Assembly: GCF_003797775.2 (NCBI RefSeq)
Contig: NZ_CP060725.1
Coordinates: forward strand, 2,474,001-2,538,000
Length of the DNA stretch: 64,000 nucleotides
Direction of reading: 5' to 3'
DNA from: Sphingopyxis sp. OPL5
Lineage (GTDB): Bacteria > Pseudomonadota > Alphaproteobacteria > Sphingomonadales > Sphingomonadaceae
The stretch's first letter is position 1; each line of letters begins with the position of its first letter. Made by a program: the position numbers and the translations under genes. The notes beneath the pieces are model-generated. The model saw only the letters and a program-made list of their open reading frames with translations. It had not been told where the DNA came from and made no database searches. Below are positions 42,742 through 54,958 of the stretch, piece after piece.

Positions 42742-42815
42742 TGCCCTGTCGTCTAATGGTAAGACTGCGGTTTCTGATACCGCCTATCGAGGTTCGAATC
42801 CTCGCGGGGCATCCA
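42742..42815 (+). tRNA. tRNA-Gln (anticodon CTG)
   Basis: The 74-base gene folds as a cloverleaf: acceptor TGCCCTG with CGGGGCA, discriminator T, then encoded CCA; D-loop CTAATGGTAAG; anticodon stem GCGGT/ACCGC with loop TTCTGAT (anticodon CTG); T-arm CGAGG-TTCGAAT-CCTCG. tRNA-Gln(CTG) reads CAG codons. The 3' half (GGTTCGAATCCTCG...CCA) is a usual integrase attachment site and marks the border to the accessory region. Confidence 0.95.
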
Positions 42816-43388
42816 GACTTTCTCGCTAAGAAATTGATTTAGCGGGATAATTTTGGAAGCCGGAAGGCTTCCTCCCTCATCTCCTCCCTCAGACAGCTTT
42901 GCCAACAATGGCGAAGAATAGCGGACAATCGGTCAGAATCTCTAACTTTTCACCGGGAATTCTGACCAACCTTGGCCCGCCGAGCGGCGGACGAGGATCC
43001 AGATGCTGTGAGAGCATTCGAGCGGCCGTTAGGGCCAACGGGCGCCCGTATTGGGGCCGCGCAATTCCCGCTGGCGGAGATCTTGGGCTGCGTACTCCAA
43101 TTACATCCATATTCGGTTCCAGTTTTGGTTGCTGATCACGATCGATCTGTTGGAAATGAACGCCCGCCCGTACAGTCAACTTGGGCGAGTGACCGGGCTC
43201 CGTCACGTATGTCCAGGCAATAGCTAAAGGTGGCGGTGCGTGCTCCAGACGCGCGTTTCCTTTGCTCGGTCACTTTTTCAAAGAAGTCCGGCCGATAATA
43301 ATTGGATTATAAAATGGATGGCATTTTCATGGACGCATAGCTTCGGATTGCGACTCATCTCGGTCGCATCTTGAAGAGAGGAAATGCC
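42816..43388. other. 573-base gap between tRNA-Gln and lasso precursor; no gene supported
   Basis: Several short frames exist in both directions, such as a 105-codon minus frame at 42889-43206, but they resemble no family. This is the expected place of an integrase beside an attachment site, so it may hold integrase remnants. Near the right end TATAAA (43308-43313) is a -10 candidate for the lasso operon, with an inverted GCGAC-8-GTCGC in the leader (43351-43369) and AGAGAGG before the precursor ATG. Confidence 0.5.
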
Positions 43389-43529
43389 ATGCAAAACGTC
43401 GAACATGAAGCTGGCCTCGTCGATCTCGGCGACGCACGCATCGAAACCCGGGGCGTCGATCCCGAGGGTCCGCTCGATTTCCAGACCGGACTGCGGAAGA
43501 TCGGCGGCGGCATCCAGGCAGCCGACTGA
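43389..43529 (+). CDS. Lasso peptide precursor, sphingopyxin-like
   Basis: The precursor has 46 residues. The leader (1-21) ends RIETR with the conserved threonine (Thr20) two positions before the core. The core is 25 residues from Gly22. Its first nine are GVDPEGPLD, so the ring is most likely Gly1 to Asp9 (Asp30 of the precursor); the tail has LRKIGGGI and ends QAAD. From memory sphingopyxin I shares the pattern G-x-x-P-x-G-P-x-D and a tail with GGI and a final acidic residue. Basic residues Arg36 and Lys37 in the tail differ from the acidic tail I recall for that peptide. The B and C enzymes follow directly. AGAGAGG precedes the ATG. Confidence 0.9.
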   Translation: MQNVEHEAGLVDLGDARIETRGVDPEGPLDFQTGLRKIGGGIQAAD

Positions 43530-43537
43530 TCCGTCTG

Positions 43538-43564
43538 GCGTGCGGTTCCTTGTGGGCCGCACGC
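43538..43564 (+). other. Intergenic hairpin between lasso precursor and B gene
   Basis: GCGTGCGG and CCGCACGC form a perfect 8-bp stem with an 11-base loop in the 55-base gap. In other proteobacterial lasso clusters a hairpin after the precursor is thought to raise precursor mRNA relative to enzymes by stabilising or partly terminating the message; the same is likely here. Confidence 0.6.
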
Positions 43565-43584
43565 TACCGGATCGGCCCATTCCC

Positions 43585-44286
43585 ATGAGTACCATCATCA
43601 CCGATTTGGCGGCGAAGGACGCTCTTTCTCGCATCGAACGGTCTGAAGCGCGTGCATCGCTTCGCACGGGTCTGCGCATCCGCCCTCAATTGCGGGTACG
43701 CCTGATCGGCTCCCGCTATGTGTTCCTTGACCTGACCGCGAGCCGCTATTTTCTGCTCGAAGGGGTGGGGGCCGAGCGCTTTGCTTCTTTTTGCGATGAG
43801 ACCGCAAATGACGACGACATCGGCTGGCTGCATGAGCGACGTATCATAGAGCTTGGGGCGCCGCTCGCGCCCCCGCCCCTCCCGTTCCCTCCTGCGTGCA
43901 GCGTTTTCGATGCGCCGCCACCGCGCGCGCGTCCGTGGCTTGTCGCTGAAGCGCTCGCCGAACAAAGCCTTGCGCGCCGCCGCGTGCGCCAAGAAACACT
44001 CGCTGAGTTGCTGAAACCTGCCGAGGCTTGCACATTCGATCCCGACGCCTGCCGTGCGATTGCCGCCGCCTGCCGCGCTGCCGCGCGCTACCGATCGGCT
44101 GCCGACCAGTGCCTCCCGAATGCGCTCGCAATGCGAAAAATGCTCGCGCGCCGCGGCATCGGCGCAGACCTGGTCATTGGCGTAATGCTGCCGTTCGCGG
44201 CGCATTGCTGGCTGCAGTCTGGCGACTTGGTGCTGAGCGACCCGTTCGGGAGTGTACAGAACTTCCACCCGTTGGTCGCCACATGA
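43585..44286 (+). CDS. Lasso peptide B protein: fused RRE and leader peptidase
   Basis: The 233-residue protein has a PqqD-like RiPP recognition element in roughly residues 25-90 (RPQLRVRLIGSRYVFLDLTASRYFLLEGVG) that binds the leader. The C-terminal half is a transglutaminase-like cysteine protease: Cys176 in DQCLPNALAMRKMLARRG, His207 in PFAAHCWL and Asp219 in LSDPF form the triad. It cuts the leader off so that C can close the ring. The frame is open upstream to 43384, but the precursor gene lies there; ATG at 43585 is the usual type of start. Overlap with C is ATGA. Confidence 0.93.
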   Translation: MSTIITDLAAKDALSRIERSEARASLRTGLRIRPQLRVRLIGSRYVFLDLTASRYFLLEGVGAERFASFCDETANDDDIGWLHERRIIELGAPLAPPPLPFPPACSVFDAPPPRARPWLVAEALAEQSLARRRVRQETLAELLKPAEACTFDPDACRAIAAACRAAARYRSAADQCLPNALAMRKMLARRGIGADLVIGVMLPFAAHCWLQSGDLVLSDPFGSVQNFHPLVAT

Positions 44287-46028
44287 GCTTCTGGGTCCGG
44301 ATCGAGATTGGGTCTCAAGGCCGGGCTCCGATCGACGAACGCGAGGGCGCCACTGGTTTTGCGGGTCGCTCCGCGCGCGTCTGGAGCGGAGTGCCGTTGA
44401 TCTCGCTTGGGAGGCGCGGTTGCGTAGCAGGCTATCTTTTCCGTCGTGACCACCCCTGCGGCCGCATTCTCGTTCTAGACGAAGATGCGATCGCTAAGGC
44501 AATCGCGACGCGCGGCGCGTCTTTACTCACCGACTATTGGGGCGGCTATGTTGCGCTCGTCGAAAGCGAAAACGGCGATGTCCATGTGATGCGCGATCCA
44601 TCAGGCCTGCTGCCCTGTTATGTCCGCCATGAACAGGACATCACTCGCCTCGCGAGCGACATGACCGAGCTTGCGAAACCAGGCGGGGCCACCGTCAATT
44701 TCAACGTTCTTGCGAAGTGGTTCGCGAGTATCGATGCCCTCGGCCGCCAAACCGGTATCGCCGGTATTGAGGAGCTTCTTCCTGGCGAGTGCCTGACAGT
44801 GACCGAAACAGGAACGCGCACCAGCCTTGCTTGGTCGCCGTGGGACCATTTTCCACGGCGTTACAGGAGCAGCTTCGCCGACAACGTCGGCGCTTTGCGC
44901 GCGGCCGTCAAAATGTCGGTGGGCGCATGGACGACCTGCTTTGACTCCATACTGCTCGGCGTCTCGGGCGGGGTCGACAGCAGCATCGTTGCAGCCGCTG
45001 CAATGCCGCGAACGCCGGGGCTTCGGCTCCTCACATTTGTCGAGGCCGGCACCGAAGGGGACGAGCGGCGCTATGCCGAGGCGCTCGCTTTCAAGCTGGG
45101 CGCATCGCTCGCCACAGCGAATTTCGAACTCGCGACGGTCGATATAATCAAACCGACATTGCCGCACTTTCCAGTCCCGCTCGCACTGCCGATCTTTCAG
45201 GCGATCGAGACCACTCACCGAGACGAGGAACGTTGCAAGCCGATTAGCGCCTTTTTTACTGGCAACGGCGGCGACAATGTCTTCTGCAACATGCACAGCG
45301 CTGCGCCTCTTGCCGACCGGCTGATTGCGCATGGCCCAACGCCAGGTGCGTGGCGCACGGCGCGGGACCTCACCGATCTCACTGGTTCGTCCATCGCCGA
45401 GGTTGCCCGCCGTGGCTGGCACCGGCTCCGCGATCGCCGAGAACCGCACCTTATCCGCTTCGACTTGATGGGCCTGACCTCGCGAGCCGCCATTGCCGCG
45501 ATCGCCGAAGATGATCGCCATCCCTGGCTCGCGGCACCGCCTGGCGCGCTGCCAGGTCAAAAAGCCTATGTCGCAATGCAGGCTCGCGGACAGAAGAGCG
45601 TCGAGCTTTACCCGCGGCAGCGGCGCGCGCCACAGATCGCACCGCTTCTCTCGCAACCAATCGCCGAACTGTGCCTATCGATCCCGACCTGGCATTCCGT
45701 GCAGGGCGGCCGCGATCGCGCGGTGGCGCGAGCGGCCTTTGCGGTCGACCTCCCGCCGCTGATCGCAGACCGCCGGACGAAGGGAAGTCCGCAAGGGTTT
45801 CTGCGCCGTATCTTCGATGCACAACTGCCGGCGGCCCTGGACCTCTTACGCGGCGGGCGCCTTGTCGATGCCGGAATTGTCGATCCCCTCTTTATCGACC
45901 GCGCTGGCGAGGGAGTATGGCGTGACGATGGGCGCGATCTTCGCATCCTGACCTTTTGCGCCGCCGAAACATGGGTACGATGGTGGGAAGGTGGCGGTGC
46001 ATCGCCTGACGGCACCGCCGCTGAATAG
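44283..46028 (+). CDS. Lasso peptide cyclase C (asparagine-synthetase-like)
   Basis: The 581-residue protein has a glutaminase-like N-terminal half (residues 1-170) without the catalytic Cys2 (MSFW), and an ATP-pyrophosphatase half with SGGVDSS at residues 228-234. It adenylates the ring carboxylate (predicted Asp9) and lets the free Gly1 amine attack it, making the macrolactam. Length and motif match lasso C proteins. The start overlaps the B stop by ATGA; the frame is open 85 codons upstream, but that part is inside B in another frame. Confidence 0.93.
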   Translation: MSFWVRIEIGSQGRAPIDEREGATGFAGRSARVWSGVPLISLGRRGCVAGYLFRRDHPCGRILVLDEDAIAKAIATRGASLLTDYWGGYVALVESENGDVHVMRDPSGLLPCYVRHEQDITRLASDMTELAKPGGATVNFNVLAKWFASIDALGRQTGIAGIEELLPGECLTVTETGTRTSLAWSPWDHFPRRYRSSFADNVGALRAAVKMSVGAWTTCFDSILLGVSGGVDSSIVAAAAMPRTPGLRLLTFVEAGTEGDERRYAEALAFKLGASLATANFELATVDIIKPTLPHFPVPLALPIFQAIETTHRDEERCKPISAFFTGNGGDNVFCNMHSAAPLADRLIAHGPTPGAWRTARDLTDLTGSSIAEVARRGWHRLRDRREPHLIRFDLMGLTSRAAIAAIAEDDRHPWLAAPPGALPGQKAYVAMQARGQKSVELYPRQRRAPQIAPLLSQPIAELCLSIPTWHSVQGGRDRAVARAAFAVDLPPLIADRRTKGSPQGFLRRIFDAQLPAALDLLRGGRLVDAGIVDPLFIDRAGEGVWRDDGRDLRILTFCAAETWVRWWEGGGASPDGTAAE

Positions 46029-46033
46029 TCGCG

Positions 46034-48241
46034 CTAGCGGCAGCGATTCGGTAGCGCCGCCGCCATTGCATCCCACCTAGCATAGCGCTCCGCGAACGGA
46101 GACTCCCGATCGCGTTTGCCGAGCAACCAATAATCGAACCACGCGATATTTTCCTCCATCGCCGCCATGCGATTCGACGGGATGTGAAAGACATGGGTTT
46201 CGTCTGATGCCGCGCCCTCGCCCGGGAACAGACTAATCTGGGCCGGAACGCCGGCCTTACGAAGCGCGCGATAGAAGTCGATCGACGCGACATGAGGCGC
46301 CGCGATCTGTTGAAGTATCGCGCCGCAGGCCTTGCTCGCGCGAAGCGATGGCGACAGCGCGAGATAGTTGGGGAGCGCCTTCGGATCGTAAGGCAGCCCC
46401 GCGAAGATCGCGACATAATAGTCCGGCATATCGGCCGCCATCGCGGGCTCGAGAAAGCCGCCATCGCCACTAGATGCGGCGCGAAACACATGGGACTGGG
46501 TCATGGCCACGTTCACCAGCTGCGAACCGCGGCTATATCCCGCAATCCCGACACGCTCGCGATCGATAATGCCTTCGTCGGCCAGTTCAAAGACGGCATC
46601 CTCGAAGCTTGCAGCGCCCGTGAGCCAGAGCAGCTCCCGCATCCGCTCTGGCGGGAGCGTGGTTCCCTGAAGGCCCCACGCCTGCTCGGCCGCGCGAAGG
46701 TCGGCATTCAGCCGGCTGCTCGCCTCGTTGATGAGAAGCACGACGTAACCGCGCTCGGCGAGCGTCTGGACGGGATATTCCCATTGATTGTCCTGCAGCG
46801 CAAAGCGCTGGTCGGCATCATTGCCATGATTGACGACAATGGCGGGATAGCGCTGGCCTTTCACATAATCACGCGGCCAGACGACATAGCCAGTAACCTT
46901 GTGGCCGTAGCGATTGGTCCAGCTGCGCGGCGTGACCTGCAAGGGGGCAATCTTGTCATGCTCAGGCGATACCGAGGCGACGGTCCGTACCCGCCCCGAC
47001 GCGATATCGACGGTGACGAGCGACGGCGGCAGCGTCTGCCCTTCGGCGAGGCACGCCGCGATTGCGAGCGTCGGGTTGAAGTCGCATTTCGTGAGACTGC
47101 CGTCGCCCCATATGGGCCGCACCCCCCGCCGGTCGATCACCCCGATTCCGAAGCGCGGATCGTCAAGTGCGCGAATGTTAACGACTGTCTGGTTTCCGTC
47201 GGGCGCCCACAGGCCGCCGAAGGCAGCGCCGTGGCCGATCGAGAACGGGAACCTGCCATAGCTGTGCCGTCGTCCGTCTTCGCCGATCTCGACGATTTCG
47301 CGCGTGTCGCCAAGGCCATCGGACGCCAATTGCCCACCGCGCGGCCCCTTCATCTGCCAATAGACATAGTCACGGGTCGATGCGATCGCGCGAGCGCGGC
47401 CTTCGACAAACGACCAGGCCATCGTCACGCGTCGTTCGATGCCTTCTCGGTCAACTTCCATGACGGGATATTGAACTTCTTCCCCCGTCCAGATGACATC
47501 GCCCTTCGACGCGATAGTCGACCGGTCGCTGCGCGGACGGCGCGCGATCAACGTGACCTTCCCGTCGGGAGCACGGAGATAAAGCGACGCGGTCGCCTGA
47601 CCCAGTCGTCGCCGCAATCCGCGTTGTTCGCTCACCTTCTCATCGATCAGGATCTGGCGCTCGTCGCTTGCGGAGTCGAGCGTGATGAAGAAGAGCCGGC
47701 GCCCGTCAGGCGACCAGTTGTAGGCGCGCACCCCGACCGTCAGTGGCCCATGAGCATAACCTGGCAGTATCCGGTCTTCGACTTCGCCGAAACGCGCGGT
47801 GGCCGGATGGGTGACGATCGGCTCGATTGGACCTCCGGGCTCGATCCGGTAGAGCTGCACGCCATCGCCTCGGTCGATCAACGCGCTCCACGCAGCGCTC
47901 CCCGGAATGCGGCGCAGCTGGTCGATCCAGGGGGCGCGAAGCAACTCGCGACTTGCGCCGCTTTCGAGATCGACCAGCGTCAGCCGTGCGAGCGTCGTGT
48001 CGCTGACGGCATCAGCGACGCGCGTCACATAAGCGGCACTTTTGCCGTCGGCGGCGATCGCGATCGACCACAGCCGGGGCACAGTGAGCTGGTCGGCGAG
48101 CGTCCAGCGTCGCGCTGCCTCTCCATGAACCGCGGCCCTCAGGGCGGGCGTTCCATCGGCCTTTCCGACCATGGCGATGGCAGGCGCGGAAAGCAGAAAA
48201 GTGAGCGCTGACGTATAGCCGAGCGTGAGGTTCGCAGCCAT
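46034..48241 (-). CDS. Lasso peptide isopeptidase (prolyl-oligopeptidase family)
   Basis: The 735-residue protein has a signal peptide (MAANLTLGYTSALTFLLSAPAIA), a beta-propeller half and an alpha/beta-hydrolase half with the nucleophile Ser570 in GYSRGS, followed by DETHVFHIPSNR with the catalytic histidine. It matches the AtxE/SpI-IsoP-type isopeptidases that open the lasso isopeptide bond in the periplasm. The stop is 5 bases from the C stop (convergent). The ATG at 48241 lies just after the TonB receptor stop; two GTG codons at 48250 and 48247 would overlap it. It is the last gene of the sigma/FecR/TonB operon. Confidence 0.9.
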   Translation of the reverse strand: MAANLTLGYTSALTFLLSAPAIAMVGKADGTPALRAAVHGEAARRWTLADQLTVPRLWSIAIAADGKSAAYVTRVADAVSDTTLARLTLVDLESGASRELLRAPWIDQLRRIPGSAAWSALIDRGDGVQLYRIEPGGPIEPIVTHPATARFGEVEDRILPGYAHGPLTVGVRAYNWSPDGRRLFFITLDSASDERQILIDEKVSEQRGLRRRLGQATASLYLRAPDGKVTLIARRPRSDRSTIASKGDVIWTGEEVQYPVMEVDREGIERRVTMAWSFVEGRARAIASTRDYVYWQMKGPRGGQLASDGLGDTREIVEIGEDGRRHSYGRFPFSIGHGAAFGGLWAPDGNQTVVNIRALDDPRFGIGVIDRRGVRPIWGDGSLTKCDFNPTLAIAACLAEGQTLPPSLVTVDIASGRVRTVASVSPEHDKIAPLQVTPRSWTNRYGHKVTGYVVWPRDYVKGQRYPAIVVNHGNDADQRFALQDNQWEYPVQTLAERGYVVLLINEASSRLNADLRAAEQAWGLQGTTLPPERMRELLWLTGAASFEDAVFELADEGIIDRERVGIAGYSRGSQLVNVAMTQSHVFRAASSGDGGFLEPAMAADMPDYYVAIFAGLPYDPKALPNYLALSPSLRASKACGAILQQIAAPHVASIDFYRALRKAGVPAQISLFPGEGAASDETHVFHIPSNRMAAMEENIAWFDYWLLGKRDRESPFAERYARWDAMAAALPNRCR

Positions 48242-48243
48242 GC

Positions 48244-50775
48244 TCACCACTCCTGACGCACGGTGAAGCCGAGGAAGCGTCCGGCTGGAGAATAGCTCGT
48301 CGTATCGTAGGGCGTATCGGCGGCTGAAGTCGTCACGATCGGCGCCGGTTTCGCATTCAAGAGGTTCAGCCCCGCGAGCGATACGCGCGTCCCACGCCCG
48401 ACTTTGACCTCGCCGTTAAGATCGACGGTGGTAAGGCCGCGCACCGCCACCGCAGGCGACCGGCGCGCGTCGGTGATCGCTGCCGAATGGCTGACGAAAG
48501 CCGAGAGCGACAGGCGGTCGGTCGACCAGCTCGCACCGCCGCGTGCGCGGAAGCGCGCTGGGTGGAAGAGAGTTCCAGCGAGCCGAGTCACTAGCGCGTC
48601 GGGACGGAGTTGCTGGCGACTGCGCAGCAGGGTGCCCGCCGCGGTGAGCGTCAGGTCGCCGCCGCCGAGGGAAATCCGGTAGCGCAACGACAGGTCGGCA
48701 CCGCGATAGCGCTGGCGAGCGATGTTGCGATCGCGCAGATCGAGAAAGGCGACAACGTTCGCCGGGTCATAGGCCGCTCCGCTCGCATTCTGGAATGGAG
48801 GCAAGGCGTCGTTGATGATCTCGCCCTGAAACGCCGCGGTCGGCGCGCGGATGATTGAGTCCGCGAAGATCGGATTGTCGAGGGCGCCAAGCGACGATGC
48901 GAACGGCGTTGCCACGCGGTCGCGATAATCGATGTCGAACCAGGCCGCGGTAATTTCCAGACCGTCCGCAGGCGTAATCTGCGCGCTCAGTGTCCAGTTC
49001 TCCGACCGCTCGGGACCGATCCGGCTGTCGGACCCGGCGGCATAGAGTACCGTCGCGCCGGCGGGGAGGCCGGCCCCGTACCGTGCTGCGGGCGCGAGAA
49101 CGGCCGAGTAGCCGCTATATTGCTGCAATAGTGTGGGCATCTTGAAGGAGCGGCCCCACGAGACCCCGAGCCGAAGCATGCCGACCGGTTCCCACACCAG
49201 TCCGAGCTTGGGCGTGAGGATACCCTTGGAGTCCGAATAATCCTCGAAGCGCAGCGCGCCAGTGAGCGAAATTCGATGCAACCCCGCCAATTCCTGGGCC
49301 GGGGCCGCGATCGGCAGATGAATTTCACTATAAGCGAAGATCGCGTCGCGCCGCTTCACAAGATCGCCCACCGCGCCGCCTGTCTTTAGTTGATTGCGCC
49401 GAGCTCCGGCGCCGATCGCAAGCCGAATATCGCCTGCTGGAAGCGCGAACAGCGGCCCCTGAAACCCTCCCTCGACCGCGAGATTGCGGTTGAAGAAGCG
49501 CCGGTCGAAACTCGCGATCTCGGCGCCGCCCGCGAATAGCTTGGTCACCCCGGCAGTTCGATCCGTGCCGTAGAAGCCGCTGGTCTTGAAAGTCCAGTCG
49601 TCCCCCATTTCCACTTTGAGCGTCGGCGCAACACCGAAAATCTCCGAGCGAGTCGCCGCGTCAATCCCCGATGTGCGCGGATCGGCAGTGAGGGTGAATC
49701 CCGTTATCGCGTGGTTGCGGCTATTCTTGTACAGCATGTCTGCCGACAGCGTTACATTGGTGCCGAGCGCCTGGTGCCCGCTGATCAGTACGGAATGACG
49801 CCGTTGCGTGGGAAAGAGGGTGCTCGCCGGGTTCGCGGCGCCGGTATAGGAACGGTCCCCGGCAAAGATCGCGGTCGACCGGCTATAGTCATACGCGGCA
49901 ATCACGCCGCCCGACCTCCAGCGCGTGCCACCGAGCAGACCATATTGTTGCTGGACGTTCCCGCCGTCGGTCGAGGCACCGACACGCGCCATCGCAGACG
50001 CACCGTCATAGTCGCGTTTCAGGATGATATTGACGACGCCTGCTACCGCGTCCGCGCCATAGATTGCCGATGCTCCGTCGGCGACGATTTCGACACGTTC
50101 AACCGCCGACACCGGGATTGCGCTGACGTCGATTACCGATGACACGCCGGTGTAGGCGAAGCGATTGCCGTTGAGCAACGTCAGCGTCGCGTTGGGACCA
50201 ATCCCACGCAGGTTGAAAGTCGAGGCGCCGTTGACGTTGGCATTTTCATTGCCCGCGCCCTGTCCATTTCCGATGCCGGGATTCTGACCGCCCCCGAAGT
50301 TCTGCGGCAGGCTGCGCGCGACTTCGCCGAGATCGTTCTGGCCGGCTTTGCGAATATCTTCGGAGGTTATCCGAATGACCGGCGCGGCGGGAGCAACGCC
50401 GGCAATTCGGGAACCCGTCACGATGATGGGTTCGTCGTTCGAAGCAGCCAAGGGCGCCACTGCACTCCGCGAAATGATGACCGAGCCGGCTTCGAACCTC
50501 GCTGTGAGCCCGCTGTCCTTCAGCAGCGCGTCGATCGCTTCGCGCGTCGTCAGCTCGCCTTTAAGGGGCGGCGCTGTCTTTCCTTCAAGATCGCGCGACG
50601 AAGCATATAGTTCGACATTGGCGGTCTTGGCGGCGCTGCGCAGCGCGTCACCGAGATCCTGGGAGGGTATATCGTAGGACTGGCGCTGCTGTTGCATTGC
50701 CAGTGCCACCGCCGGCGAGAGACAGGCGGCACTTCCGATCAGTAGCGCTACCAGCGAACGGGACTTTTTCAACAT
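48244..50775 (-). CDS. TonB-dependent receptor with STN signalling domain
   Basis: The 843-residue protein has a signal peptide (MLKKSRSLVALLIGSAACLSPAVALA) followed by an STN domain (residues 35-100; QSYDIPSQDLGDALRSAAKTANVELYAS, EAIDALLKDSGLTARFEAGSVII), which talks to FecR. Then come the plug (EPIIVTGSRIAG, ATLTLLNGNRFAYTG) and the barrel, ending in TVRQEW. It probably takes up the mature lasso peptide from outside. ATG at 50775 follows GGGGGAG; GTG at 50781 is the other choice. Overlaps or adjoins the isopeptidase gene. Confidence 0.93.
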   Translation of the reverse strand: MLKKSRSLVALLIGSAACLSPAVALAMQQQRQSYDIPSQDLGDALRSAAKTANVELYASSRDLEGKTAPPLKGELTTREAIDALLKDSGLTARFEAGSVIISRSAVAPLAASNDEPIIVTGSRIAGVAPAAPVIRITSEDIRKAGQNDLGEVARSLPQNFGGGQNPGIGNGQGAGNENANVNGASTFNLRGIGPNATLTLLNGNRFAYTGVSSVIDVSAIPVSAVERVEIVADGASAIYGADAVAGVVNIILKRDYDGASAMARVGASTDGGNVQQQYGLLGGTRWRSGGVIAAYDYSRSTAIFAGDRSYTGAANPASTLFPTQRRHSVLISGHQALGTNVTLSADMLYKNSRNHAITGFTLTADPRTSGIDAATRSEIFGVAPTLKVEMGDDWTFKTSGFYGTDRTAGVTKLFAGGAEIASFDRRFFNRNLAVEGGFQGPLFALPAGDIRLAIGAGARRNQLKTGGAVGDLVKRRDAIFAYSEIHLPIAAPAQELAGLHRISLTGALRFEDYSDSKGILTPKLGLVWEPVGMLRLGVSWGRSFKMPTLLQQYSGYSAVLAPAARYGAGLPAGATVLYAAGSDSRIGPERSENWTLSAQITPADGLEITAAWFDIDYRDRVATPFASSLGALDNPIFADSIIRAPTAAFQGEIINDALPPFQNASGAAYDPANVVAFLDLRDRNIARQRYRGADLSLRYRISLGGGDLTLTAAGTLLRSRQQLRPDALVTRLAGTLFHPARFRARGGASWSTDRLSLSAFVSHSAAITDARRSPAVAVRGLTTVDLNGEVKVGRGTRVSLAGLNLLNAKPAPIVTTSAADTPYDTTSYSPAGRFLGFTVRQEW

Positions 50776-50872
50776 TATCACTCCCCCATATTCTCGGCCG
50801 TGCTTCAGGCAGGCGGCCAGTGGGGGTGCGTTGACGGGGCGAAAGGGAGCCCCTTAGTCTTGCGGTGAAAAA

Positions 50873-51862
50873 TTATCGGCGGCGCAGATGGATGGCGTCC
50901 GGCGAGCGTTCGACTCTGAGACCGAACAGATTTGCGATCCGTTCAACGAAGGCATCGGTCTCGCTAAGATGAAAACGGCCGGAAACCTCAAGCGCTGCGC
51001 TTGTCCCATCGTCGATCACGATCGGGATGACGGCATAGCGATTGGCCTCGGCAACCAGTCGGTCGAGCCTTATCGAACGATATTCCGCCCAGCCTTCGGG
51101 CCAGCTTGCGGGAATGCTAGACGCCTGCGCAACTTCGAGCTGCAACTTGCCATCACGCCGATAGGTCAGCGTCTTTCCCTGTGACAGCGCCGTCGCCGGG
51201 CCGACTTTCGCGTCTGCGCGCAGTGCGGCTTCGCCGCGCCGGAGGACCGCGCTGACCGTTCCTGCCTCGTCGAGGCTCAGATCGATCTCGGCATTGTTCG
51301 CGATTGTCGTGCCTCGCCCCGCGTCAATATGAAGCGGGATATCCTGTCTGGCGGCGGAAAGACGGACCCGGCCCTTGATCAGGCGGACGGTGCGGTCTCC
51401 GTCCCCGAATGCGACGTCCAGGCGGCTGTCGGTATCGAGCGTCGCGCTCGAGCCGTCGGCAAGCCGGAACGTGCGGATCTCGCCGCGCTGCGTAATCAGG
51501 GGTTCGGCGGCGCGCGCGATCGAGGCGCTGCCGGGCTGGCCGGGAAGGGAGGCGCCTCCAGCCCCGATTGCTACAATCAGGAGTGCGATTGCGGTCGCGG
51601 CAGCGCCCCACGGCAGCCAGCTGCGAACCCGGCCCCGCCGCGCTTCGGTATGGCCTGTTCCGTGGCGCTGTGATGTTTTGAGAACCGCCAAGGCCGCCAT
51701 GCGGCGTTCGGCGCGGCGATAGGCTTCGCCATGATCGGCCGATGCGAGGAGCCATGCTTCAAACTCGCCGCGCAGCGCGCCGGCTTCCTCGCCGCGCATC
51801 TTGATCAGCCACGCCTGGGCCACCTCATCGACGGGATAGTCGCCGCCGCTTGTGCTGGTCAT
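50873..51862 (-). CDS. FecR-type anti-sigma/sigma-regulator membrane protein
   Basis: The 329-residue protein has the N-terminal DUF4880 segment (VDEVAQAWLIKMRGEEAGALRGEFEAWLLASADHGEAYRRAERRMAAL), one transmembrane helix (SWLPWGAAATAIALLIVAIGA), the FecR domain and a C-terminal STN-like segment. It carries the signal from the receptor's STN domain in the periplasm to the sigma factor in the cytoplasm. Its start overlaps the stop of the sigma gene by ATGA. Confidence 0.92.
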   Translation of the reverse strand: MTSTSGGDYPVDEVAQAWLIKMRGEEAGALRGEFEAWLLASADHGEAYRRAERRMAALAVLKTSQRHGTGHTEARRGRVRSWLPWGAAATAIALLIVAIGAGGASLPGQPGSASIARAAEPLITQRGEIRTFRLADGSSATLDTDSRLDVAFGDGDRTVRLIKGRVRLSAARQDIPLHIDAGRGTTIANNAEIDLSLDEAGTVSAVLRRGEAALRADAKVGPATALSQGKTLTYRRDGKLQLEVAQASSIPASWPEGWAEYRSIRLDRLVAEANRYAVIPIVIDDGTSAALEVSGRFHLSETDAFVERIANLFGLRVERSPDAIHLRRR

Positions 51863-52488
51863 CGGCCGCCGTCCACCACCTTTGAAATTCGACCGAGCGC
51901 TTTCATCATATGATATTCTACCGTCGCGATGCTGATGCCAAGCAGCTCGTGTATCTCGCGATAACTGAGTTCGTCCACCCGGTGCATCAGGAAAATGCGC
52001 TGCGTTTTTGGCGGCATGGCGTCAACGGCGGCTTCGTACAATCGCAGCAAGTCCGCCGCTTCAAGGTTCCATTCCTGCGCCGCAGGCGTTGCCCCGTCGC
52101 ACTCCTCGCGAAGCGGAAAGAAGGTCGCCCGCGCGGACTTCTGGCGCCGCGCGCGATCAATCAGGAGATTTTGGGCGATGCGGCGAAGAAACCCACCCGG
52201 GTTGACGAGCTGGTGGCGCTGTTCGCTGCCCGCTGCGCGCGCGAAGACTTCCTGAACGAGATCGGGGGCTTCCTCCGGTCCCGCTTTGCGGCGCAGAAAA
52301 TGAAAAAGCGACGTCCGATGCGCTCGATACGCCGCGTCGAGATCATGCGCGCCTCCAGACCGCTCTTCGACTGAGAGTGGGCGATCGTCCGGATGCGCGT
52401 GGCACGCTGAAGACACCGAAAAAGGGTGGCGCGGCGGGGCGCGGTCGCCGCAGGTACAGGAAGACACGACACATAATCCCGGAGGCAC
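51859..52488 (-). CDS. ECF sigma factor, FecI-like
   Basis: The protein has sigma-2 (LDAAYRAHRTSLFHFLRRKAGPEEAPDLVQEVFARAAG) and sigma-4 (AVDAMPPKTQRIFLMHRVDELSYREIHELLGISIATVEYHMMKAL) regions. It should start transcription of the TonB receptor-isopeptidase genes when released by FecR. The start is uncertain: GTG at 52488 gives 209 residues, and GTG at 52416 gives 185, closer to the usual FecI length; no in-frame ATG exists near the domain. It is the first gene of the operon. Confidence 0.87.
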   Translation of the reverse strand: MPPGLCVVSSCTCGDRAPPRHPFSVSSACHAHPDDRPLSVEERSGGAHDLDAAYRAHRTSLFHFLRRKAGPEEAPDLVQEVFARAAGSEQRHQLVNPGGFLRRIAQNLLIDRARRQKSARATFFPLREECDGATPAAQEWNLEAADLLRLYEAAVDAMPPKTQRIFLMHRVDELSYREIHELLGISIATVEYHMMKALGRISKVVDGGR

Positions 52489-52663: not shown

Positions 52664-53485
52664 TCATGTCAATTCTGGACGTCTGTGACAAGCTAAAGCG
52701 TCACCCGATGGCTGCTGATGCTCAGGGCTGGCGGCCTGGATGCCCGGCAAGCGTCCGGGCGTAGTTCGCCGCTTCATGCGCGCGCCGCTCGTGATAGCGG
52801 AGCATGAGATTGCGAACCTGCGCCTGCGGCTCGGCATCGGCGACGGCGATTGCGATCGCTTCGACCTCCGCTTCCACATCGGCGAGGATCGTCGCGTCGA
52901 ATTGCCGCGATAGCTGAAGCCGGTCACCGATCGCGGCGATGCTCGCGACGATCTCGCTGTTCGATGAGCGTTCGGCAATGGCGAGGAACAGGATTTCGCC
53001 ATCCCTTTTACGCCGTGGCTCTCCGGAAAGATACGTGTGGCGCCATTGTCTTTCGTGAACGGAGTGAGCGGCCACAGCACATTGACCAGATATTCCTGGG
53101 TGCCGTCCGCGCCGCGCCACATATCGTGGTCGCGGTGCGGAAACTGCCGTACCTCGCCGGGATGGATTTCGATCGCTTGGGTGAGATTCAGCTGGATCCG
53201 GTCGCAGCCGGTCCCGAGGATCGTTTCGACAGCGGAAAGGATGATCGGGTTAAGCACCAGATCGGCCATATGCGGCGACCTTTTGAGCAGGCTGCCGAAC
53301 CGTTTCGTGCGGCGACCATAGAAATTGCCTTCACAAAAGGGCGTCGCAGCAAAGATGGGTTCGAGATCCCTCGCGAGCGCATGGACGCGCCCGATCGCCT
53401 CGTTGCGCATGATGCAGTAGCCTTTGTGGCGCAGCTCATCGACGAGCAGGCCAGGAAGATCGGCTTCGGTCAGATCCTTTTTCAT
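52664..53485 (-). pseudogene. Truncated phytanoyl-CoA dioxygenase-family gene
   Basis: From ATG at 53485 the first 165 or so residues match the PhyH family (Fe(II)/2-oxoglutarate dioxygenases): MKKDLTEADLPGLLVDELRHKGYCIMRNEA, then the metal pair in PHRDHDMW and the LTPFTKDNGATRIFPESH stretch. At about base 53000 the homology stops, before the second metal histidine and the 2-oxoglutarate arginine. The frame continues to 52664 with low-quality sequence. The gene overlaps the luxI stop by ATGA, so luxI and this gene were once cotranslated. Confidence 0.8.
52722..53003 (-). pseudogene. Remnant of a GntR-family regulator (FCD domain tail)
   Basis: In another frame than the PhyH fragment, codons from about 53003 to 52722 encode DGEILFLAIAERSSNSEIV...RLQLSR and later EVEAIAIAVADAEPQAQV...MLRYHERR, which fits the C-terminal ligand domain of FadR-type GntR proteins (FHxAIAxASGN...EHxAIxxAxxxxD). 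The DNA-binding half is gone. A deletion appears to have joined this tail to the PhyH gene. GntR regulators are frequent in proteobacterial lasso clusters. Assignment is from pattern only. Confidence 0.6.
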
Positions 53486-54108
53486 AGCCCCGGCTCCCCG
53501 CTTTCCTCGAACTTGAGGACAAGCGGCGCGTAGGTGCCGGTGCGCTGCAACCCGGGGAGCGTGTCCTCGTCGACAGCTATGCTGAGGGCGAGTATCCGGC
53601 ACGCGCCATCCCGGTGGACTGGACCCAGCGTGCGGCATGTCCAGCCGAATTTGCTGATCGTGTGATACCAGCCAGCTTCGGCGACGCCGACATATTCGCT
53701 TATGCCATGATGCAGCGCGTAGTCTGCGAGCGCGGTGACCAACTGGTTCCGCGCGTCGCGGTGCTCGGCCGGCGTTTGCGCGGGGTCGAGGCAGAAGCGG
53801 CTGATCTCCCACACGCCTTCGCCGGACGGGGGGCCGTCGGCGCAAAGCTGCGGATAGACATCGCCGAGAAGGTGCGGCGCCGTTGTCGGCAGCAGTCGCA
53901 CCGAAGCCCGGTGGCGCAGATCATCGGGATCGAGCAGGATGAGGTAACGCGCGTCCGGCGTATCGAACTGGTCGAGCTCGAAGCGGCCATCGAGGGCGGG
54001 CAAATCCCATTGCAACTTGTCGATGAAGACCTGCTTTCGGGCCGCGAACATGGCGCGAAGGGATGCATTCCCGGGCGCGTCATGCGCCCGCGTGGATTGA
54101 GTGATCAT
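53482..54108 (-). CDS. luxI: Acyl-homoserine-lactone synthase LuxI
   Basis: The 208-residue protein has the LuxI core: MFAARKQVFIDKLQWDLP, ELDQFDTPDARYLIL, ASVRLLPTTAPHLLGDVYPQLC and VWEISRFCLD. The conserved Arg, Trp, Asp and Arg of the family are present. It makes an acyl-homoserine lactone from S-adenosylmethionine and acyl-ACP. AAGGAAT precedes the ATG at 54108. A LuxR gene and a lux-box-like palindrome lie upstream. Confidence 0.93.
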   Translation of the reverse strand: MITQSTRAHDAPGNASLRAMFAARKQVFIDKLQWDLPALDGRFELDQFDTPDARYLILLDPDDLRHRASVRLLPTTAPHLLGDVYPQLCADGPPSGEGVWEISRFCLDPAQTPAEHRDARNQLVTALADYALHHGISEYVGVAEAGWYHTISKFGWTCRTLGPVHRDGACRILALSIAVDEDTLPGLQRTGTYAPLVLKFEESGEPGL

Positions 54109-54163
54109 GATGATTCCTTGGCTGTGGTGCCGGAATCAGACCATCAATCCCGCGGGACGACTA

Positions 54164-54179
54164 TGCCCATTTCTGGGCA
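54164..54179. promoter_or_regulatory. Candidate lux box upstream of luxI
   Basis: TGCCCATTTCTGGGCA has perfect 6-bp arms around TTTC and lies 56-71 bases upstream of the luxI start, between luxR and luxI. The GCCCA...TGGGC core is what I expect for sphingomonad lux boxes. It would give autoinduction of luxI. Confidence 0.55.
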
Positions 54180-54205
54180 ATCTTTGTGCGCTTTTCTGCT
54201 CCTCG

Positions 54206-54958
54206 TCAGAGCGGCCGCCACCAGTCGTAAACGTCCGAAAAGCCGATGACCCCGTCGAACAGGGCGCAGAGGATCAGCATTTGTCGACAAGGCACCGAAT
54301 AGCGCTCGCGCGCGATCTTGAGATGACGGACCACGGTCTCTTCGCTGATGCCGAGGATGCCGGCGGTCTCTCCGGCGGTCTTGCCGCGGGCCGACCAGAG
54401 CACACATTCGCGCTGTCGCTCGGTCAGCACCGCTCTCCGGGTGTAGGAGCCTGTACCGATAAGCTGCCGCGCCGAGGCGAGCGCGACCGCGCCGACGATC
54501 TCGGCGGCATGGAGCATCTCGACAGGGATATTGCCATTGGGAGCAACCGCAAAGGAGCAGCTGCCCGTGGCTTCGCCCGGCAAGTGCCGCGGCACCGTGA
54601 ATCCGTCGCCGATACCGCTCTCGCGGGCGACCTTTAGCAACTGGCGGTCGCCGAGGGAGAGCGGGATATATTGATCGACATCGCGCCATTGGAAACCCGT
54701 CATGGAGCGTTCGCCGGCGCGCCGGATCGGATCGGTGCCGCTGAGGTCAAAGCCGACATAGACATTCGCCCAGGCGTCGGGATAATTATGCACGAGCATC
54801 GATGCGGCTTCGTCGGCGCCGCGGCGATCGAAGGCGAGCGCGAAAAGATCAAACCCCATGCGCCTGGCGGCGTTCGACAAGGCGGCAAAGAGCCGCTCCT
54901 CCTTGTCGGCGCCTGATATATCGTGTGCGAGTTCCTCCGTCAGATCAAAATGCTTCAC
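54206..54958 (-). CDS. luxR: LuxR-family autoinducer-binding regulator
   Basis: The 250-residue protein has an autoinducer-binding domain with VYVGFDLSGTDPIRRAGERSMTGFQWRDV and a C-terminal LuxR HTH (LTERQRECVLWSARGKTAGETAGILGISEETVVRHLKIARERY). It binds the acyl-homoserine lactone made by LuxI and controls target promoters. It lies directly upstream of luxI on the same strand. Confidence 0.93.
   Translation of the reverse strand: MKHFDLTEELAHDISGADKEERLFAALSNAARRMGFDLFALAFDRRGADEAASMLVHNYPDAWANVYVGFDLSGTDPIRRAGERSMTGFQWRDVDQYIPLSLGDRQLLKVARESGIGDGFTVPRHLPGEATGSCSFAVAPNGNIPVEMLHAAEIVGAVALASARQLIGTGSYTRRAVLTERQRECVLWSARGKTAGETAGILGISEETVVRHLKIARERYSVPCRQMLILCALFDGVIGFSDVYDWWRPL

Follow-up and report, generated by a model that had tools for sequence, protein, structure and literature searches.

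The stretch of DNA considered here, hereafter the window, comprises 64,000 nucleotides (positions 2474001-2538000 of contig NZ_CP060725.1) of the single-contig 4.68 Mb genome of Sphingopyxis sp. OPL5, and carries the genes for a lasso peptide together with an adjoining LuxR-LuxI pair of the type used for signalling by acyl-homoserine lactones (AHLs). As judged from their sequences, the lasso genes form a complete sphingopyxin-like cluster of the isopeptidase type, and re-translation gene by gene recovered in place every gene claimed by an earlier sequence-only reading of the same DNA. On the forward strand lies the biosynthetic operon A-B-C. Gene A (43389..43529, + strand; positions are those of the window) encodes the lasso precursor of 46 residues and confirms the composition first read for it, i.e., a leader of 21 residues ending in DLGDARIETR, with RIETR as its very end, and a core of 25 residues, GVDPEGPLDFQTGLRKIGGGIQAAD. 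The precursor barely meets the gathering score of the Pfam family PF24178, Subterisin (27.1 bits for a gathering score of 27, E 4e-6), and stays under the cut-off of the benenodin family (NF033522, 26.1 bits vs 33). Both Thr at position -2 of the leader and Asp at core position 9 are in place, as expected from the family logic of sphingopyxin-like peptides, and a Gly1-Asp9 ring is predicted from the core; minus one water, the core has a predicted M of 2492.266 and [M+2H]2+ of 1247.140. That the precursor could be a chance open reading frame (ORF) was considered and is ruled out by the precursor family and by promoter elements conserved at related loci.

Gene B (43585..44286, + strand) begins 55 nt after the precursor and is overlapped by 4 nt by gene C. 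The B protein combines an N-terminal RRE-like region with a C-terminal cysteine protease, the latter matching Transglut_core3 (Pfam) and NCBIfam lasso_biosyn_B2 (64.7 bits vs a cut-off of 33), with the residues Cys176, His207 and Asp219 invariant across 12 homologues. No RRE family match from Pfam or NCBIfam was found in these 12 B homologues; the top PDB match of the B profile is 6jx3_B, TfuB1, weak at E 0.021 and confined to profile positions 9-76, and a low-confidence model (pLDDT 57.8) places strands then helices at residues 30-90. TfuB1 in 6jx3 is, we assume, a lasso RRE protein. Of the fused RRE/protease originally proposed, the protease thus stands and the fusion to an RRE is likely. 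Gene C (44283..46028, + strand) encodes an asparagine synthetase-like lasso cyclase with the motif SGGVDSS, an identity borne out by Pfam Asn_synthase (59.6 bits, cut-off 21), while the NCBIfam lasso cyclase models NF033561 and NF033535 both score far under their cut-offs; it is the sole cyclase match in this genome.

Convergent to A-B-C, four genes on the reverse strand constitute what is called here the receiver operon, namely (i) a FecI-like ECF sigma factor (51859..52488) with ECF sigma domains above cut-off, (ii) a FecR-type anti-sigma/signal protein (50873..51862) with its FecR domain above cut-off, (iii) a TonB-dependent receptor (48244..50775, start taken as ATG 50775) composed of an STN signalling domain, a Plug and a barrel, and (iv) a lasso isopeptidase of the S9 family and sphingopyxin I type (46034..48241, start taken as ATG 48241) with the motif GYSRGSQ. 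The isopeptidase (Peptidase_S9) stays under the NCBIfam Atxe2 cut-off (NF033523, 171.9 bits vs 400) and aligns to PDB 5jrk over residues 18-734, i.e., its full length (E 1.2e-192); the Pfam domains and this alignment uphold the assignment given to all four genes at the outset. Entry 5jrk is presumably the structure of the sphingopyxin I isopeptidase (Fage 2016). In a set of 80 Sphingopyxis genomes searched for cyclase, LuxI and isopeptidase, sphingopyxin-type isopeptidases adjoin and converge with a cyclase in 43 of 44 instances; one of these cyclases is split, which brings the number of pairs to 44. The exception is a receptor-isopeptidase pair in genome G035 (locus L094, 12783-19040), lacking its own biosynthesis genes and adjoining a complete lasso cluster; this receiver module (ECF 29%, FecR 26%, receptor 58% and isopeptidase 55%) is followed by a distant LuxI and might listen for lasso peptides of foreign origin. 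In two clusters of the window subfamily (L097 and L098, in G014 and G015), the 6.7-7.3 kb upstream of the receptor contain nothing recognisable as FecR, ECF or LuxI.

Directly upstream of the ECF operon, and overlooked in the sequence-only reading, stands a LuxR-LuxI pair, the more novel feature of the locus, together with what is left of phyH and gntR. The LuxR-type AHL receptor/regulator (54206..54958, - strand) matches PF03472 and PF00196, and the LuxI-type AHL synthase (53482..54108, - strand) matches PF00765 (78.4 bits, cut-off 24) and is the sole LuxI match in this genome at E 1e-10; its stretch RKQVFIDKLQW fits the spacing of the conserved R24/F28/W34 named in PMC3704786. The phyH remnant (52996..53485, lower bound approximate, - strand) preserves the N-terminal portion of a gene resembling phytanoyl-CoA dioxygenase and was put out of frame by a deletion. 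The gntR remnant (52728..52994, - strand) retains only the C-terminal part, with 84% identity to residues 113-201 of an intact GntR from a related locus (L099, PF00392), a protein that has no other match in the genome at E 0.001. In relatives, intact phyH and a GntR regulator stand between luxI and the sigma factor (L102 is without PhyH), and compared with both L096 and L099 the window lacks 724 nt in this region (52728-53485), a deletion that took away the C-terminal part of phyH as well as the half of gntR encoding the DNA-binding domain.

Three promoter elements accompany these genes. An AT-rich palindrome upstream of the precursor, ATAATTGGATTATAAAATGG (43298..43317, + strand), is a candidate operator that aligns before the first precursors in other class-1 loci; allowing up to 2 mismatches, a pattern built from these very sites finds it as the sole site in 64 kb and finds none in 100 shuffles, and naming GntR as the regulator acting at it is a guess. 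Closer to the precursor, the TGCGACTCATYTCGGTCGC element with its GCGAC/GTCGC inverted repeat (43349..43367, + strand, position computed from L004) aligns at related loci and has an exact match in 18 of 136 loci, some of them overlapping. On the other side of the locus, a lux-box-like palindrome, ATTGCCCAGAAATGGGCATA (54162..54181, - strand), is situated 54-73 nt upstream of luxI, and variants of it recur upstream of luxI in related loci under a weight matrix that included this site. The pattern taken alone was rejected as significant since two-mismatch matches are no rarer than chance, and the evidence for this element is therefore its positional recurrence upstream of luxI.

Considering the peptide itself, precursors of the same family were found by their leader pattern at the same place in related loci. 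The cores of the window group (14 from 11 genomes) all have 25 residues, 1-2 Arg/Lys in the tail, a tail net charge of +1 to -2 and Asp at position 9 in 13 cases (Glu in the other), whereas the S. alaskensis-type cores (n = 11) have 25-27 residues and a tail charge of -2 to -5, with one Arg or Lys in 4 of the 11. It had been suggested that the tail, being unlike acidic tails, might point to an unknown peptide. In favour of this, six core or fragment strings were not found in open papers, supplementary core tables lying outside that search; against it, the Arg/Lys tail is common to all 14 cores of the group and hence a subfamily trait, and the core GVDPEGPLDFQTGLRKIGGGIQAAD is identical in a second Sphingopyxis species (genome G062, cyclase 94% identical), which rules out a core unique to this strain. 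The window core is a new chemical member of a known lasso type. As to the further suggestion that the precursor gene falls below the usual length of gene finders, NCBI annotation often calls precursors this short (42-47 residues in six inspected records, none annotated in another). Two features of G062 may be set beside the window: a shortened LuxI abuts a different lasso isopeptidase (L108, L096), and the phyH frame opens with a stretch resembling a conjugation protein, presumably TrbF, pointing to a large insertion that separates luxI from phyH. Elsewhere, clusters L099, L107 and L102 each have two tandem precursors, e.g., GVDVEGPIDFQTLLKIRNGGIQAED and GVDVEGPVDLQTLMKIRHGGISDDD, and a further core, GIKQLGEPDFEDGDHYGLVGAISTDD, is common to four loci unlinked to LuxI (G071, G031, G061 and G022:C45).

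A close described relative is the sphingopyxin I-type cluster of Sphingopyxis alaskensis (5jrk/5jrl), which shares gene content and gene order with the window, likewise combines Gly1 with an acidic residue at position 9, and has LuxR-LuxI-PhyH-GntR upstream of the ECF gene (L133). The two differ in the core (25 residues with an Arg-Lys tail in the window vs 26 residues with a tail charge of -5), in their proteins (cyclase 42%, isopeptidase 45% and receptor 57% identical) and in PhyH and GntR, which are broken in the window. This species is represented here by genome G001, identified as S. alaskensis RB2256 by the 100% match of 12 kb of a small contig to plasmid NC_008036.1, and both of its LuxI matches adjoin lasso clusters, one (L133) whose isopeptidase matches 5jrk at 1630 bits and the other (L131) with the core GEALIDQDVGGGRQQFLTGIAQD. 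The core of L131 is, as we take it, that of sphingopyxin II; S. alaskensis is presumably the source of both sphingopyxins I and II. According to Gan 2015 (PMC4288048), RB2256 has two canonical luxR/luxI pairs and no solos. In its sphingopyxin I-type cluster (L029), as in L030 and L032, the gap separating cyclase from isopeptidase contains another precursor-like ORF at about 3290 along the cyclase strand, with the core GLEPVGPVEEDTGSRYIPFAGIGEYD in L029 and L030 and a variant in L032; it is possibly an overlooked lasso peptide of S. alaskensis. In the astexin/benenodin clusters (AtxE2, PDB 5txc), too, the genes for isopeptidase, receptor, FecR and sigma factor converge with A-B-C, though the window isopeptidase is alignable to AtxE2 only over residues 379-728.

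How general the association of LuxI with lasso genes is was assessed within the genus set, counting linkage up to 12 kb, and across 199 sampled genomes from the family, counting it up to 16 kb. The chance expectation takes the genes to be placed at random, on 4.2 Mb per genome for the genus and on genomes of the listed sizes for the family. Within the genus, 92 of 133 cyclase matches lie within this distance of a LuxI (split cyclase matches each counted separately), when about 2 would be expected; reciprocally, 93 of 127 LuxI matches are that close to a cyclase match, and 33 of the 44 sphingopyxin-type isopeptidases have a LuxI within 12 kb. Outside the genus, linkage is found for 22 of 48 cyclase matches, in 22 genomes bearing about 17 genus labels (hand count), against an expectation of about 0.5. 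All 22 linked LuxI proteins are among the 34 most like the window LuxI and none among the other 44, the cut at 34 having been chosen post hoc. At these 22 loci, LuxR, LuxI, PhyH and cyclase are present throughout, B in 21 (L149 is cut), GntR in 20 and candidate precursors in 21. Twenty genus loci (L112-L131) are lasso clusters too, with precursor candidates and LuxI in 20/20; these loci and L144-L165 were picked for a nearby LuxI, so that LuxI frequency is readable only from the genus-wide and family-wide counts. Beyond the Sphingomonadaceae, Asticcacaulis excentricus M6 (L142, NZ_AP018829) has luxR-luxI about 13 kb from a cyclase, past an ECF gene and three HTH genes.

With regard to gene order, 62 annotated stretches were surveyed, 56 of which have both LuxI and cyclase; among the 6 remaining, L134 is without LuxI only because the stretch ends short of it. 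PhyH is encoded in 52 of these 56 stretches and GntR in 53. The LuxI unit, which is found on chromosomes as well as plasmids, takes one of three arrangements: it reads into A-B-C in 32 stretches, into ECF-receptor-isopeptidase in 18, and in the other 6 away from ECF. The figure of 32 includes L094, mis-called since its LuxI belongs to the adjoining orphan module; of the 55 stretches left without L094, 49 have luxI reading toward a lasso operon. A LuxI tree of 57 rows, none dropped and with L103 and L146 on long branches (the L103 row may be a second, more distant LuxI of that locus), needs only 4 arrangement changes, so that the link looks old and rearranged few times, and the idea that the three arrangements represent many independent events was rejected on that ground. 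The same order is annotated on the plasmids NZ_CP076395 (Sphingopyxis indica pMC4), NZ_CP016458 (Blastomonas sp. RAC04 pBSY18_2) and NC_015579 (Novosphingobium sp. PP1Y Lpl). Lasso clusters occur on five further plasmids, from S. fribergensis, S. panacis, Caulobacter rhizosphaerae, N. resinovorum and Sphingobium sp. RAC03, and there gntR immediately precedes A, or B if A is unannotated; the gene tables of these five records and of that of A. excentricus M6 are incomplete. As to genomic site, the precursor of the window is preceded at a distance of 0.6 kb by a tRNA-Gln(CTG) at 42742-42815. L096 and L102 have the same tRNA-Gln and FAD-AhpC-M19 flank, i.e., the same site, whereas L101 has a tRNA-Arg there and the other loci have no tRNA, so that the cluster occupies different sites across the genus.

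Parts of this picture have been described separately. The linkage of luxI and phyH in sphingomonads is already published, and a luxI-phyH operon regulated by quorum sensing was put forward as a hypothesis drawn from other work, in Gan 2013 and 2015 (PMC3704786, PMC4288048); the luxR-luxI-phyH loci reported there consist of the same three genes as in the window, and the main text of both papers is free of the terms "lasso" and "asparagine synth". One of these genes, luxI Lpl262, is on the PP1Y plasmid Lpl, where luxR-luxI-phyH-gntR adjoin a lasso cluster. Biosynthetic clusters with embedded AHL regulators, as in the window, were reported by Brotherton 2018 (PMC5872303), the main text of which contains neither "lasso" nor "Sphing". 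From the lasso side, neither PMC13352647 nor PMC12670498 contains the words quorum, luxI or luxR, "quorum" is absent from PMC9266682 and PMC5067487, quorum, luxI and homoserine are absent from PMC7549694, and PMC8498205 mentions AHLs in its introduction only. No tie of AHL quorum sensing to sphingomonad lasso clusters was found among the open titles and abstracts listed, subscription papers and supplements lying outside the search, and as far as searched the quorum-sensing tie of the lasso cluster is undescribed. According to PMC11006600, a sphingomonad mutant in a lasso B gene lost the use of phenanthrene.

Taken together, the locus is probably one supercluster, in which a lasso operon A-B-C, a convergent receiver operon and an AHL unit would be joined so that the latter gates both lasso making and lasso sensing by cell density. 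Read directly in the DNA are the component genes, the order in which they stand, the recurrence of this set and, in the window, the loss of both phyH and gntR. On the side of the peptide, the RRE-like domain of B would bind the leader, which B would then remove, and C would close Gly1 onto Asp9 to yield a threaded lasso of 25 residues, i.e., the core minus one water. After leaving the cell, the peptide would be bound by the cognate STN receptor, which would signal via FecR and the ECF factor for induction of receptor and isopeptidase; once imported, the peptide would be opened by the isopeptidase. On the side of the AHL, we infer that the lasso genes are under quorum control: LuxR with AHL would act at the palindrome before luxI and drive luxI-phyH-gntR. 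Read-through from there would, given the gene order of the window, extend into the ECF-receptor-isopeptidase operon; given the other common order, it would extend into A-B-C. GntR probably acts at the lasso promoter, as a likely relay, and its position just before A or B in the LuxI-less plasmid clusters suits a lasso regulator taken over by quorum sensing. AHL-driven read-through and GntR at the lasso promoter would together place lasso making and sensing under the control of cell density.

Several observations weigh against such density gating. In the window strain itself, gntR and phyH are broken, which has probably left the relay broken or short-cut, and the loss of GntR may have freed or silenced the cluster; no lux-box-like site above background was found before A in the window. 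In G062, which has the same core, LuxR-LuxI (93% and 92%) lie about 113 kb from the lasso cluster. Absence of linkage is also frequent, namely for 11 of the 44 sphingopyxin-type isopeptidases in the genus (7 with no LuxI on the contig, 4 with a far one) and for 26 of the 48 cyclase matches outside it, and no LuxI is listed in the inspected stretch of the five plasmid lasso clusters from S. fribergensis to Sphingobium sp. RAC03. Finally, the genomes are related and their linkage counts are not independent, and the conserved linkage could reflect co-inheritance of one old block. This last point leads to the view, in our opinion an unlikely one, that an ordinary lasso cluster merely carries quorum-sensing hitchhikers, neighbours by descent on mobile DNA without a regulatory link. 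The location of the three annotated linked clusters on conjugative or mobilizable plasmids, the few rearrangements required by the LuxI tree and the existence of lasso clusters without a listed LuxI would all suit it. It accounts less readily for a LuxI unit found in three arrangements at either end of the cluster with luxI directed toward a lasso operon in most stretches, for the linkage in 22 genomes of other genera, and for a GntR which stands before A in LuxI-less clusters and travels beside luxI-phyH where LuxI is present.

Other alternatives bear on the function of the peptide rather than on its regulation. The lasso could mainly be a siderophore-like carrier or a scavenged nutrient, its cargo being released by the isopeptidase, a role that is somewhat unlikely and that would be compatible with quorum timing, the two not being exclusive. 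The FecIRA-like receiver operon fits such a role, and a siderophore-like function has been proposed for clusters of this type in PMC9266682 and PMC11006600; yet no cargo is known for the window core, and the narrow specificity reported for the sphingopyxin I isopeptidase, which cut only its own lasso among those tested (PMC9266682), fits signalling as well. Very unlikely, in comparison, would be an antibacterial lasso with the isopeptidase as self-protection: a scan of 17 proteins from the 38.9-58.5 kb region, which did not cover every ORF, found no ABC exporter. It is true that some lasso peptides are antibacterial; those known from isopeptidase clusters, astexin-1 excepted, are nonetheless without antimicrobial activity according to PMC9266682.

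Returning to the supercluster as a density-gated circuit, a wider proposition can be made tentatively, at somewhat short of even confidence, namely that a dedicated luxR-luxI-phyH-gntR lineage in the Sphingomonadaceae largely runs lasso circuits, cell density gating a second, strain-specific signal that would pass through STN, FecR and ECF and be erased by the isopeptidase. A ready natural comparison is offered by the window strain, where GntR is lost, and the sister species G062, in which the GntR match is uninterrupted and the core identical. S. alaskensis RB2256 is suited to testing as well, given the isopeptidase crystal structure 5jrk and the production of sphingopyxins I and II in Escherichia coli (PMC7549694). 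If the proposition is true, the luxI-phyH operon of sphingomonads is part of lasso clusters. To our knowledge, the natural role and the trigger of isopeptidase-type lasso peptides are open questions, and we know of no targets for many of the LuxI/LuxR systems of sphingomonads; the recurring linkage of the two offers one answer both to the role and trigger of the lasso peptides and to what these quorum-sensing systems control.

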